NCBI GenBank assembly: GCA_958295815.1
Contig: OY282374.1
Span: forward strand, 2,376,856 to 2,440,855
Source of the DNA: Candidatus Poribacteria bacterium
GTDB lineage: Bacteria > Poribacteria > WGA-4E > WGA-3G
Direction: 5' to 3'
DNA length: 64,000 nucleotides
In this document: piece after piece, positions 55,955 through 61,125 of the stretch
How the letters are laid out: the number at the start of each line of letters is the position of its first letter
Numbering within the stretch: the stretch's first letter is position 1
Translations under genes and position numbers: made by a program
Notes under the pieces: generated by a model
Told to the model about the DNA's origin: nothing
The model's database searches: none
What the model saw: the letters and a program-made list of their open reading frames with translations, nothing else

Positions 55955-58900
55955 TCAATCGGAAGATGGTTTCCACCAAGGAGCAATTCTCGGTTGCTGA
56001 CCTGCTGAAAGATTCTCACCCCGGCAATACTCCCGAAGTTTTCTCCTATAAACTTCAATATTACGTTTTGTCTTAGAAGAATTTCTCCACCAATACCAAA
56101 ATCGATCAACAAGAGCAAGGACTTTTGGATCAGTACTTTGCGACTTTTCATATAGTTGTTCATCTTCTTCGATCTGGTAACGCCAACATTGAGCGATAGG
56201 AGACAAGGCAGGATTAATTTGCTCAAAAACGGCAGAGATTTGGAACAGATCGCGAGTCTGTAAAGCCTCTCGGTAAACTTCTCGACAGCTTCGTTCCTGC
56301 TGTGCAACCTCGTATGCCCACGTAGCATGTTCACGAACCCACTGACTTGGATCATCTGACTTCAACTCTCCCAGTTTCTCAATTGCTTCCTCCTCTTCAA
56401 GCCACGGTAAAATCGAAACACCAAGATTACGTTGCTTCGCATAAGGACTTTGTAAGTATTCCTGTGTCACCAAATTCCATAGCTCATCTTCGCCTCCACC
56501 AAGTAAAGAAGCAAGCGTCATAAACATAATTTCTTCGTCATTTAGACATTCCTCCAGCAGTTTACGTCTGAAGTCGCGATGTGCCGATAATCCACAGTCC
56601 TCAACCTGCCAAAGTTGAGCAAGAAAAGACTCTACACCGTAATGATTTGAGTAAATTGTTCTAACACCCTCAGTTCTCCAACGATCATAGTGTTTCATTG
56701 CATTATCCGGTTGGAAACGTAACAACAAACAGAGAATATTATCCGTGAAGTCACTCAACGCTTGGCGATACTGTGGAGATTTAGAAAGTTCGGTGAGATA
56801 TTCATCTGCTAATTGCTCAAAATCGCTCTTGTTCTGTTCTGCCCAAACCTTAAGAACGCTGCGGTGAATCCTAAACCTTAGTTCTTTAACAGAACGAGAG
56901 TTTCCTTCAGCACCCTGAAGAATTGAACACATCCGCTCCATAATTGCTTTACCGAAACGAGAAAGATCATCCTGTCGATCTGGTGTACACAGAAAAGAAC
57001 CTACCATTTCCAAAGGCAAAAACGATATGAGCGTATCATAAGACGGCGCATTTTCACTCCCGTCATAAGGACGTATCGTAAATCGTCTACCATTCTTAGA
57101 AAAAAGATGTTTTTGTATTTTTTCACCTCTATTAGCCAGCATTTCATCCAAAAATCCTTTTGAATCCGATAACGCTAATCGGAGCATTGGAAAGGTTCCA
57201 GTTGAATCAGGCTTTCTGATTTTCAGCTCTTCCAATGTATACTTTACTGAGTTTTCATCAACTTGGACACTGTAAGTGTAAAGCATACACCAGAAATCTT
57301 CCTCTGAGAATTCTTTAGCTTCGTTATCAGATAGATTCTGACCATTAGATGATACGGGCCGAAGTGTCTCCAATTTTTGCTGTGCCAATCTCACGATTGA
57401 CTTCGGTAATAGTTCATTAAGCAGACTTGGTATTGGGAGGCGGTCAATTACTCCCCGGAGTGGTCCATGGGCAGATAGAAATTCAAACCAATCGGTTAAC
57501 TGCTGTTCAGAGGCAGAAAAAAGGAGGGTTTCTGTCAGTAAAGAAGTTAAATAAATAGTATCAGATGATGAATTGTCCGCTTGAGCATCTTGAACAAGAC
57601 GCTGCTTCATCCCCAAAATCGCTTCCGCAATTCTTTCGCGATCTTCCAGTTTAAAAATGATCCCCGGAATTGACCCAAGTTTAAACTGTGCCCATCTTTG
57701 ATTCAGAGCGTTAAGTTTGAGACTACAGGCAAGTTCAGCATAACTTTTGAAATCATATTTGGCAACCCACGGTAGTAGATTTTCTATACAAAAATCTTCA
57801 AGAGTTGCACCAACACTCCAACCTAACTTAGCATTCAGTGATACATCCTTCAAAATTTTCTTGATTTCGATGAGATCTTCATAGTGCAAGTCAGGCAAAT
57901 CTTTCCGAACCGCTAAATAGTCAAGCCCGTGGTAATTACCATTGGCTGCTGGTGAATCACCTATTAATAAGCGTTCTTGGTTTCGAATGCGATCAATATA
58001 AGGTTTAAAACTACGGTTCCATTTTTCGGCAAAAGCGCGTCTCTCTAAGTCTTTTTCTGTGAGAGGACATTCCAGAATTTGAGGTAAGTCAGCAACCCGC
58101 AGGTTAGCAGCCAAACCATAAATTCCATTCAATAGCGATGTATCATCTTCAGCTTGTTTCGCCAATGAACGTAGGTCATCCAAAACATCTTCAGTGTATC
58201 CCCACCGCATCAACTTGCCAAGATACTCATCAAAACGCGCTAGTCTGCTAATTTCCTCATGAGATTTTGCGTTACTCCACAGAAATTCATAGCAACGCGC
58301 AAGTGGTTCTAGGAATTGAGGATCTGGTCTTTGGGATAGAATTGAGATAGCAGCACATGATAATTGGGTTTGTATATCATCCTTTTTCCGAGGAAATTGA
58401 TTCTCTTTATGACCAACATAAACAATATCTTCTGGCTCATCACTAATTGATGTAGCGAGCAGCCATTTGGTAAGACGTAATCTTAATTGATTAATTTGTC
58501 CTATTTGGTGCAACCAGACTTTGGCGAGAGGTCCAATGAATGCTTCTTCATAACTCGGAGAATTGTGAGTTTCCAACTGAATCTTGACAACTTGTGCATA
58601 GGCATCGGTATCTGTCCGCACCCAAAAAGAAATGTGCTTATTTGTAATTTGTGCATTGTGACTATTGAACCATGCAAGCATTAAAGCTGCCCGCTTTTGT
58701 GAAAGTTGGTCTTGCGGAATATCAGGATCAGGCGATATTGCTGTGATATGTAGTGCTACAAATAGTGCTTTGGACCGCAAGTCTTCTGAAGGGATTGGCT
58801 CAAGCGCATTCTGAAAGCACTCGGCAAAATCTTTAATTTTCGTGTATTCTGCACATTCAAAAAGGTTGGCGAGGTAAAGTGCCCAACCGAGTACAATATG

Positions 58901-60691
58901 ATCTTTACTCAATTCGGCTTCCCTCTTATGTGCCGTGAGAGTAATCCGTTGTTCTTCAAGGTCTCGGCGGATTTCATGGTAATTAGAAAAACAATCTGTA
59001 AGCAATTCTACAGAGGCTTGTGGGACATCACTAATGTTAGTCCACTTCGCTTCTTTTGCGAGTTTTGCAAGGTCATCCTGAGCCTCTTCAATACGCTGCC
59101 AATCAAGTTTTTTTCGGATTTGTGGATCTCCGGCATATTTGATTTTGTAAAGCAGATCTGCCCATAAAACCATTTCCTTGGTGACAGCATCAAATGAACC
59201 GAGTTCATCTCGCAGTTCAACACATCTCTGAAAATACCGAGGAATTCTTGCAATGTCCTTTAATGAATCTGGTAAATCATCAAGTTGGAGACCTTTTCGA
59301 GCGAGTGCGTCTTGGAGTTCAGCGTCATTAAAAGGATGAATAGAAATTTTATGGACCCTCTCCCACAAATAACTCTCAAAATCCGGGTAGTCATCCAAAG
59401 GACGTGTGGTCAACAGAAAACGAATTCTATCTCTCCAATCGCTCTTGGGTTTAAAGTATTCAGTCAGAATTCGCTGTGCTGTCTCAATTGCATTCCGTTC
59501 ATTGACACCATCAAGCACAATAAGCGTTTTACGCCAGATTTTGGCTGGCTTATTTTGCAGCTTGGTGATTTTCCCTTGTTCATAGGACGGGTAGATTGAA
59601 CTGAAACAGGAGTGAAGTAAATCAGATATGAATTTATCATCTTTCCAATCTTTACTGTCTAACCAAAAAGTGACAACATTTTCGTTCTCACGAATTGTAT
59701 TCATACACTTGGCGGCAAGCCACGATTTTCCCTGCCCTTCCTCGCCTTCAAGACAACAGACGGGGCTCCCTGCGGTTTCCCACCAATCTGTGATTTCTGA
59801 TTCCAAGGACTTCCGCTCTATTGCTTCAGATAGATTAATTGGATTAAAACCTTTGTCCCTACTAAAATGATCGAGTAGGTATTCTTCAATATCTTCTTGA
59901 ACATGCTTTTGGGTTTGAATTCCATCCTCTAACTTGCTTCGGACATCCTCTATTTTCCGCTTTGTTTTTGAATCATCTGTTGCTATTTGAAGCCAAGCCA
60001 AGAATTCCTGATTGATGTTTGGAAGGTCGAAGAAATGGCAGATACCCTCCCAGAAGGTAACGCATAATGCCCCGATATCCGATAGTTTATCAGAAAGCTC
60101 AAGGGTAACAATATCCACGCCAGTTTCCCTAGCAATGGCATCCAATTCATAACTCAACTGCTCTGCATCGCGAGAGACAACTAATACATAGACTTGAAGA
60201 TGTAATCCTGGAGATCGCCTCGCTTGACCAATATCACCCTCAATTGTTTTAACATCAGGGAGGTATTTGCCAGTGTATCTCTTAGCTTGAATTGATACAT
60301 TACCGGATACACTTCTAGCATCGCCTCTTGGTTGATCTCCAGATCTCGCAACTACAAAAGGGATTTTGAGAAGCGATTTTAGCAATGTAGCAGCGAGTTC
60401 TTCAAACTCGTTAGGTTTTATGGACTGAATTAGGTTTTTTAGTTTCTGCCAACCCTGTTCATCCAAAAAAGCACCGGCCTGACCTGATTCCGCACTTTCC
60501 TCTGGAGGCGAATTCTTAGTAAGATTGACTTGGAATTCAACCTCATGCGTTTCATCCCAATAGTCAGCAAGGCTATGCGTATCCCAAAATTCACCGATCT
60601 CTTCTGGTGTTGCATCTGGAGGCGGCATCGGATCCGGATTTTTATTTTTGTTTTCTATATTTTCTTGGTTTTGCTTATTTTTGTCTTCCAT
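55955..60691 (-). CDS. antitoxin-domain / Mrr-like nuclease / STAND NTPase fusion (Avs/NLR-like)
   Basis: 1578 residues. Residues 1-60 carry the CopG/BrnA-type antitoxin signature (PEEIGEFWDTHSLADYWDE ... VEFQVNL, 29-57) without the ribbon-helix-helix part. Residues about 78-220 are Mrr-like: FEELA (96-100), RGDAR (122-126), and IQAKRY (134-139) as the nuclease Glu, Asp and QxK. Residues about 285-500 form a NACHT/STAND NTPase: Walker A GEEGQGKS (316-323), Walker B TLIVLDGVNE (389-398), sensor LLTTRP (426-431). The rest, 1100 residues, is helical, repeat-like and suited to sensing. ATG overlaps the BrnT-like gene by 17 bp. Nuclease-STAND-sensor order matches antiviral Avs proteins, so defence is a strong inference. 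Confidence 0.8.
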   Translation of the reverse strand: MEDKNKQNQENIENKNKNPDPMPPPDATPEEIGEFWDTHSLADYWDETHEVEFQVNLTKNSPPEESAESGQAGAFLDEQGWQKLKNLIQSIKPNEFEELAATLLKSLLKIPFVVARSGDQPRGDARSVSGNVSIQAKRYTGKYLPDVKTIEGDIGQARRSPGLHLQVYVLVVSRDAEQLSYELDAIARETGVDIVTLELSDKLSDIGALCVTFWEGICHFFDLPNINQEFLAWLQIATDDSKTKRKIEDVRSKLEDGIQTQKHVQEDIEEYLLDHFSRDKGFNPINLSEAIERKSLESEITDWWETAGSPVCCLEGEEGQGKSWLAAKCMNTIRENENVVTFWLDSKDWKDDKFISDLLHSCFSSIYPSYEQGKITKLQNKPAKIWRKTLIVLDGVNERNAIETAQRILTEYFKPKSDWRDRIRFLLTTRPLDDYPDFESYLWERVHKISIHPFNDAELQDALARKGLQLDDLPDSLKDIARIPRYFQRCVELRDELGSFDAVTKEMVLWADLLYKIKYAGDPQIRKKLDWQRIEEAQDDLAKLAKEAKWTNISDVPQASVELLTDCFSNYHEIRRDLEEQRITLTAHKREAELSKDHIVLGWALYLANLFECAEYTKIKDFAECFQNALEPIPSEDLRSKALFVALHITAISPDPDIPQDQLSQKRAALMLAWFNSHNAQITNKHISFWVRTDTDAYAQVVKIQLETHNSPSYEEAFIGPLAKVWLHQIGQINQLRLRLTKWLLATSISDEPEDIVYVGHKENQFPRKKDDIQTQLSCAAISILSQRPDPQFLEPLARCYEFLWSNAKSHEEISRLARFDEYLGKLMRWGYTEDVLDDLRSLAKQAEDDTSLLNGIYGLAANLRVADLPQILECPLTEKDLERRAFAEKWNRSFKPYIDRIRNQERLLIGDSPAANGNYHGLDYLAVRKDLPDLHYEDLIEIKKILKDVSLNAKLGWSVGATLEDFCIENLLPWVAKYDFKSYAELACSLKLNALNQRWAQFKLGSIPGIIFKLEDRERIAEAILGMKQRLVQDAQADNSSSDTIYLTSLLTETLLFSASEQQLTDWFEFLSAHGPLRGVIDRLPIPSLLNELLPKSIVRLAQQKLETLRPVSSNGQNLSDNEAKEFSEEDFWCMLYTYSVQVDENSVKYTLEELKIRKPDSTGTFPMLRLALSDSKGFLDEMLANRGEKIQKHLFSKNGRRFTIRPYDGSENAPSYDTLISFLPLEMVGSFLCTPDRQDDLSRFGKAIMERMCSILQGAEGNSRSVKELRFRIHRSVLKVWAEQNKSDFEQLADEYLTELSKSPQYRQALSDFTDNILCLLLRFQPDNAMKHYDRWRTEGVRTIYSNHYGVESFLAQLWQVEDCGLSAHRDFRRKLLEECLNDEEIMFMTLASLLGGGEDELWNLVTQEYLQSPYAKQRNLGVSILPWLEEEEAIEKLGELKSDDPSQWVREHATWAYEVAQQERSCREVYREALQTRDLFQISAVFEQINPALSPIAQCWRYQIEEDEQLYEKSQSTDPKVLALVDRFWYWWRNSSKTKRNIEVYRRKLREYCRGENLSAGQQPRIAPWWKPSSD

Positions 60692-60962
60692 AATTTCTTC
60701 GCTCCGCTCTGGTCATATCCCTGGCACTGATAATCAACGCTCTACGATTTGATTTTCGGATAAAGAAAACGATAAGATAACGTCCAGCGTCTGTTTGTCC
60801 CATAGCCGAGTAAACATCTTCCCCTGGTTGATTGCCTTTAGAGATGAAACGAAAATACGGGCGATTGGTTAAAACTTCCTCAACTTCGTTTTTTTCTACA
60901 CCGTGCTTTGTCGCTAGTTTCTCAACAAATTGTTGTATCCATATAATCTCATCAATCCGCAA
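60675..60962 (-). CDS. BrnT-like toxin
   Basis: 95 residues, TTG start at 60962 with CGGAGCGAG ahead. BrnT-family signs: KHGVEKNEVEEV (19-30), YFRFI, GQTDAGRYLIVFFIR (55-69), and ALIISARDMTRAERRNY (75-91), where ISARxxTxxERxxY is the closing motif. BrnT toxins are small RelE-like ribonucleases that cut mRNA and are held by a BrnA antitoxin encoded just downstream. Here the downstream protein begins with the antitoxin's signature but continues for 1500 residues. The 17-bp overlap links their translation. Toxin activity is inferred. Confidence 0.8.
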   Translation of the reverse strand: MRIDEIIWIQQFVEKLATKHGVEKNEVEEVLTNRPYFRFISKGNQPGEDVYSAMGQTDAGRYLIVFFIRKSNRRALIISARDMTRAERRNYGRQK

Positions 60963-61096
60963 ATTCTCGCTCCGGTTCTGTGTTAGCGTTCTGACAACTC
61001 GCCTCAGACTTCCTCACTCTATATCAATACATTCTCAAATTCGGTAGGCAGAATCAGGCAGTGTCACACACTTTGCCGGTTACTTCTCCTAATAGG

Positions 61097-61125
61097 ATTA
61101 TATCACATTTCCAGCGTCTTTTCAA
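61097..61125 (-). promoter_or_regulatory. promoter of the toxin/STAND operon
   Basis: Minus strand: TTGAAA (61120-61125), 17-bp spacer, TATAAT (61097-61102) with TG just before (extended -10). Start near 61090, giving a 128-base leader to the TTG at 60962. The rest of the 332-bp gap 60963-61294 holds a family A repeat. Confidence 0.7.

Follow-up and report, generated by a model that had tools for sequence, protein, structure and literature searches.

An antitoxin segment without a ribbon-helix-helix fused to an Avs-like Mrr-NACHT-solenoid protein beside a BrnT-like toxin gene in Candidatus Poribacteria

Results

Organization of the locus

The window is the whole 64,000-nucleotide stretch of a Candidatus Poribacteria genome that was analyzed; these bacteria live in sponges. 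It carries, on the (-) strand, a short brnT-like gene followed by a gene for a very large fusion protein, with the following features:

61097..61125 (-), operon promoter, TTGAAA-17-TATAAT with a TG before the -10 element (11/12 matches)
61060..61072 (-), inverted repeat AGTGT-GTG-ACACT in the 5' leader (read directly)
60675..60962 (-), brnT-like toxin gene, 95 codons, TTG start (PF04365, E 7.4e-12)
60675..60691 (-), 17-bp overlap of brnT and the fusion gene (ORF coordinates)
55955..60691 (-), including the stop codon, 1578-aa protein comprising an antitoxin segment, Mrr-like nuclease, NACHT and helical solenoid (open frame; full-length relatives 61-70% identical)
60512..60691 (-), residues 1-60, antitoxin segment, the toxin-binding half of a CopG/BrnA-type antitoxin without the ribbon-helix-helix (RHH) (weak PF12441 match; same segment in RHH antitoxins)
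60017..60454 (-), residues 80-225, putative Mrr-like PD-(D/E)XK nuclease domain with D124, Q135, and K137 (ZorD match, invariant residues, secondary structure)
59312..59761 (-), residues 311-460, NACHT NTPase with Walker A GEEGQGKS and Walker B LIVLDGVNE (PF05729, 3.5e-9)
55958..59179 (-), residues 505-1578, all-helical HEAT/importin-like solenoid, putative sensor or regulator (AlphaFold2, Foldseek)

The ORF positions and the 17-bp overlap given by an earlier, sequence-only reading of this DNA were reproduced exactly. Nearly every related locus retains a short overlap between the two genes, and the 17-bp overlap suggests translational coupling. The toxin gene starts with TTG and the fusion gene with ATG; a GGAG ribosome-binding site precedes the TTG, and both are conserved in 10/10 loci aligned. 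The predicted near-consensus promoter lies about 130 bases upstream of the TTG, and its extended -10 element is invariant in the 10 loci aligned, with much of the leader conserved too. This holds largely for the segment containing AGTGT-GTG-ACACT, the repeat itself being imperfect in most of the 10 loci. It is possible that the repeat at 61060-61072 serves as an operator, though the RHH is gone from the fusion protein. An Rfam search gave no match.

The BrnT toxin

The assignment of the 95-residue product to BrnT, proposed earlier from the sequence, was borne out by a match to PF04365 of 45.9 bits, above the curated cut-off of 34.5. The protein is one 95-aa toxin domain, and the antitoxin segment is not part of it. 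Based on the KHxV motif, K19-H20 is equivalent to the K16-H17 pair of Brucella abortus BrnT, which matters for toxicity of that protein; a K-H pair also matters for RelS (PMC13284704). Among 18 sequences H20 is invariant and K19 nearly so, and a dN/dS of 0.18 indicates purifying selection on BrnT. When unbound, the window BrnT would probably act as a growth-stopping RNase. Synonymous divergence (pS) of brnT in the window and its relatives is 0.25, about half the 0.47 of the fused large gene. A PDB sequence search with BrnT, the antitoxin, and the large protein gave no convincing match.

An antitoxin reduced to an N-terminal segment

By direct comparison with PF12441 (CopG_antitoxin), residues 1-60 match at E 0.03 and 15.5 bits, below the cut-off of 28, over profile positions 9-40 of 79. 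The segment nevertheless shares 50-73% identity with the N-terminal part of PF12441-matching RHH antitoxins. These relatives are about 90-114 residues long, lie beside BrnT, and carry the RHH after the segment; stand-alone relatives that keep the RHH give near-full-length PF12441 matches (1.2e-9 and 1.6e-7). Where they have the RHH, the window protein has a variable linker followed by the Mrr-like nuclease. Because the RHH-bearing relatives match PF12441 nearly end to end, the segment is a true homologue and the fusion genuinely lacks the RHH, and the earlier proposal of antitoxin-derived first 60 residues without an RHH thus stands. In the AlphaFold model, the segment forms two short helices, residues 29-38 and 42-45, within a low-confidence stretch; such helices would suit a peptide that binds the toxin.

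No other part of the large protein is nearly as constrained as the segment. Residues 23-60 are 93% identical between relatives, as compared with 51-79% for other regions, and dN/dS is 0.042 in the segment, 0.355 in the Mrr-like region, 0.248 in NACHT, and 0.245 in the solenoid. Synonymous divergence is similar across these regions, so that the conservation reflects selection and not recent copying. Recent copying of the segment by gene conversion was accordingly rejected for the NACHT family, in which the pS of the segment (0.47) equals that of the rest. Segments without an accompanying brnT have a dN/dS of 0.068 versus 0.042 (label permutation 90/2000, which ignores relatedness), and in the HsdS fusions without brnT described below it is 0.076, still constrained. 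Binding of BrnT in cis is perhaps not the only role of the segment, since it is constrained also where brnT is absent. Searches of viral contigs and plasmids with the segment gave no match.

The Mrr-like nuclease, NACHT domain, and solenoid

All motifs quoted in the sequence-only reading are present in the large protein, and its call of a NACHT domain and a putative Mrr-like nuclease is supported. In the nuclease region there was a single match, to the nuclease part of ZorD (4.8e-4), and no Pfam Mrr match; D124, Q135, and K137 are invariant among relatives, and the predicted order of secondary-structure elements fits a PD-(D/E)XK core. PF05729 was found in 10/10 members scanned. For the solenoid, about 1070 residues of helical repeats, the AlphaFold2 model has a mean pLDDT of 70.8, and the Foldseek matches are HEAT solenoids at E 5e-5 and weaker, with low TM scores. 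The model of residues 1-520 has a mean pLDDT of 59.5, and its best PDB match is EcAvs4 (8dgf; E 7.8e-10, TM 0.27 by query length).

The resemblance to Avs proteins noted before is therefore borne out in part: EcAvs4 is the best fold match of a low-confidence model, but none of the Avs profiles matched and the C terminus is HEAT-like. PADLOC gave no Avs match in 11 members. As no Avs profile matches, we call the protein Avs-like and not Avs4.

Orthologs lacking both the segment and the toxin exist, and for this reason the nuclease-NACHT-solenoid part probably acts alone as a STAND defence protein. A phage or plasmid origin of the large protein was rejected, given that viral contigs and phages gave no match and plasmids a single distant relative, 21% identical. 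This relative of the nuclease-NACHT part lies on a Candidatus Manganitrophus plasmid (L163:4112-8320, CP114562.1), near a gene for a SAVED-domain protein.

Linkage of the segment and brnT across Poribacteria

The full-length tagged proteins, by which we mean those with the antitoxin segment (tag) at the N terminus, form a set of 10 loci, the window and 9 other Candidatus Poribacteria genomes. In all 10, brnT is adjacent in the overlapping position, intact in 9 and frameshifted in one (L069). By contrast, brnT is present in 0/4 of the untagged orthologs (L009/L075, L076, L079, L080). The association of tag and brnT (10/10 vs 0/4) has a Fisher p of 0.001, though the lineages are related. This genome survey confirms the pairing of toxin and fusion described earlier for the window. 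Chance, an assembly error, or a frameshift artefact was rejected as an explanation, the same architecture being found in 9 other genomes, some of them on a single contig. In a tree, the tagged set falls on one side of a branch with modest support (62/91), a topology consistent with one gain of tag and toxin together.

At least three distinct genomic sites carry toxin and fusion as a pair. A Type ISP restriction enzyme precedes the pair in six loci, two of which have a second NACHT protein there as well; the window has neither neighbour. The second NACHT protein (L072:4965-7319, L078:4911-7319) has 784-802 aa and an NCH2 C terminus and is encoded between the Type ISP enzyme and brnT.

Genome G017, which is 96% complete, yielded no BrnT besides the linked one and no PF12441 antitoxin. 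The genome of the window has two BrnTs that are not linked to fusions, each with an adjoining PF12441 match. The fusion must be the antidote of BrnT if BrnT is toxic. Going by homology, linkage, and selection, the giant protein is very probably the antitoxin of BrnT.

These data bear on the explanation that BrnT is inactive or is not bound by the tag, in which case the two genes would form an ordinary operon with another role; for example, BrnT could regulate the large protein, which might itself be the regulated partner. Yet the catalytic K-H pair is kept, and in the loci read an intact brnT of this subfamily adjoins this antitoxin segment. We consider this explanation very improbable.

The same segment on other carriers

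In a phylum-wide search the segment was found in 57/85 genomes, partly in ordinary antitoxins. Besides the NACHT protein, it is fused in frame to DUF2806, HsdS, ArgC, and FGE-sulfatase-like proteins, with an intact brnT beside 4/6, 0/10, 1/4, and 0/1 of these fusions, respectively. An intact brnT thus accompanies the NACHT protein in 9/10 loci versus 5/21 for other carriers (Fisher p 0.001, uncorrected for relatedness). The sequence-only reading took the window locus for a single design without precedent; it is rather the best-maintained example of a type of fusion that recurs.

In each of the four genomes with an ArgC fusion the fused gene is the sole argC match, near relatives (94% protein identity) have a plain argC, and the inserted DNA ends immediately upstream of the start codon of argC. 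As brnT is intact in L113 (4801-6331), frameshifted in L115, a remnant in L117, and degraded in L121, the argC fusions form a decay series of the toxin gene. A short brnT remnant ahead of the segment is found in L117 and L138. In the HsdS fusions (L033, L034, L036, L038-L041, L043, L044, L052) the segment is conserved without an intact brnT, and some of these loci adjoin genes for HsdM and a HigBA-like pair. The segment fused to the FGE-sulfatase-like protein is at L120:4912-5958. Just upstream of an intact brnT-fusion pair, L037 (4148-4240) and L114 (5537-5698) have a truncated extra copy of the segment, which suggests repeated insertion at the same spot. A mobile element with clear ends was considered and tentatively rejected, the homology common to the carriers corresponding approximately to the brnT reading frame plus the tag.

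Such a distribution could be produced by a hitch-hiking cassette of brnT and antitoxin that fused by chance to many genes, with no joint function, and is now decaying. At least five unrelated carriers, the absence or breakage of brnT in every HsdS and in 3/4 of the ArgC fusions, and the insertion point before argC are in line with such a relic. In the NACHT family, however, purifying selection acts on brnT and the tag, and 9/10 toxin genes have stayed intact, at several genomic sites and next to large proteins that are only 60-70% identical. For the locus in the window we thus regard a mere relic as quite improbable.

Discussion

Several elements of this locus are already known, namely BrnT/BrnA, single-gene BrnT-BrnA fusions (PMC11980606), STAND nucleases, and toxin-derived co-effectors near NTPases (PMC7159879). 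The closest counterpart of the gene pair is the type II toxin-antitoxin system BrnT/BrnA of B. abortus (Heaton 2012, as described in PMC11980606 and PMC13284704). It shares with the window a BrnT-family toxin gene followed by one for an antitoxin of the CopG/BrnA kind, and the catalytic K-H pair, but in the window the antitoxin lacks the RHH and is a tag of a 1578-aa defence-type protein. The operon would consequently be without RHH-based autoregulation. In single-gene BrnT-BrnA fusions, nearly all of which keep the RHH, toxin and antitoxin are joined (PMC11980606). The antitoxin of a BrnT-family toxin is likewise part of a fusion here, but its fusion partner is a third protein, and the toxin is encoded on its own.

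EcAvs4 (PDB 8dgf) combines a nuclease, a STAND NTPase, and a long C-terminal helical region, as the large protein probably does, whereas the window protein has no Avs profile match and a HEAT-like C terminus. To our knowledge, Avs4 has no antitoxin tag and no linked toxin. NTP-dependent conflict systems with effector-associated domains, one kind of which has toxin-derived DUF397 co-effectors (PMC7159879, PMC8195603), similarly use a small N-terminal domain to tie an NTPase protein to an effector or toxin. Effector-associated domains are, however, homotypic adaptors present on both partners, while the tag is an antitoxin segment and is absent from BrnT. CapRel, a fused toxin-antitoxin in phage defence (PMC9712102), links an antitoxin domain to phage defence in one polypeptide, but it joins toxin and antitoxin, whereas the window has the antitoxin on an NTPase/nuclease and the toxin as a protein of its own. 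Searches of the open-access literature yielded no description of a STAND protein, HsdS, or ArgC with an antitoxin segment fused to it.

On balance, we consider it somewhat probable that the locus is a type II toxin-antitoxin operon in which the antitoxin has become a tag on an Avs-like protein, so that BrnT guards this protein and addicts the cell to it. According to this model, the DNA-binding half of an antitoxin would have been lost, and the remainder would now be the N-terminal tag on the Mrr-NACHT-solenoid protein. Homology, linkage, and selection point to a tag that binds and silences BrnT. With the large protein as the sole adjacent antidote, BrnT would be restrained for as long as the protein is made and intact. 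Loss of the operon, a phage shut-off of expression, or destruction of the large protein would then free BrnT, which would cut RNA and arrest growth. BrnT would in this way guard an immune protein and make the cell dependent on it.

Alternatively, a trigger acting on the solenoid, together with oligomerization through NACHT, could alter the tag and release or activate BrnT while the Mrr-like nuclease cuts DNA, giving one sensor two outputs; an adaptor version of this scheme is also conceivable. The better retention of brnT beside the NACHT protein agrees with it, as do the match of the N-terminal part to EcAvs4, a sensor of phage proteins, and, in several relatives, the company of Type ISP restriction enzymes and a second NACHT protein. 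Against it, ArgC and DUF2806 proteins also come with both tag and toxin, HsdS and FGE-like proteins carry the tag, and no such sensor is evident in these cases; moreover, two short helices in a low-confidence stretch, followed by a poorly conserved linker, offer no obvious allosteric path. We judge a dual-output sensor, which the sequence-only reading proposed with release of BrnT on phage sensing, unlikely. With a biosynthetic enzyme and a restriction subunit among the proteins that bear this tag, sensing by the carrier cannot be required in general. Since the tag is found on ArgC, HsdS, DUF2806, and FGE-like proteins and the carrier need not be a sensor, we favour guarding and addiction over sensor-gated release. 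Guarding and addiction is the simplest reading, and we infer our preference for it over regulated release from these comparisons. The retention of brnT beside the NACHT protein nonetheless leaves room for a closer functional tie, two outputs included. A broader proposal, which we put forward as doubtful, is a general strategy in which an antidote peptide of about 45 residues is placed on a valued protein, such as an immune NTPase, a restriction specificity subunit, or a biosynthetic enzyme, and the toxin polices the presence of that protein, with the NACHT STAND switch also gating release to direct an attack on both RNA and DNA from one sensor.

The locus would join two branches of bacterial immunity, toxin-antitoxin systems and STAND sensors, by a plain physical link, and it suggests that an antitoxin is reducible to a peptide tag, which occurs on unrelated proteins. 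If the tag works, the tagged protein cannot be lost without self-poisoning, and the pair would be a device that nature uses for guarding or addiction, and a portable tool as well. With natural tagged and untagged orthologs at hand, the question why toxins accompany defence proteins becomes directly testable.

The genome of the window also contains a second fusion of this kind (L032:3464-5132; G000:C1 near 2284500), in which brnT is followed by the segment fused to DUF2806 and then by a gene for an AAA_21 ATPase.
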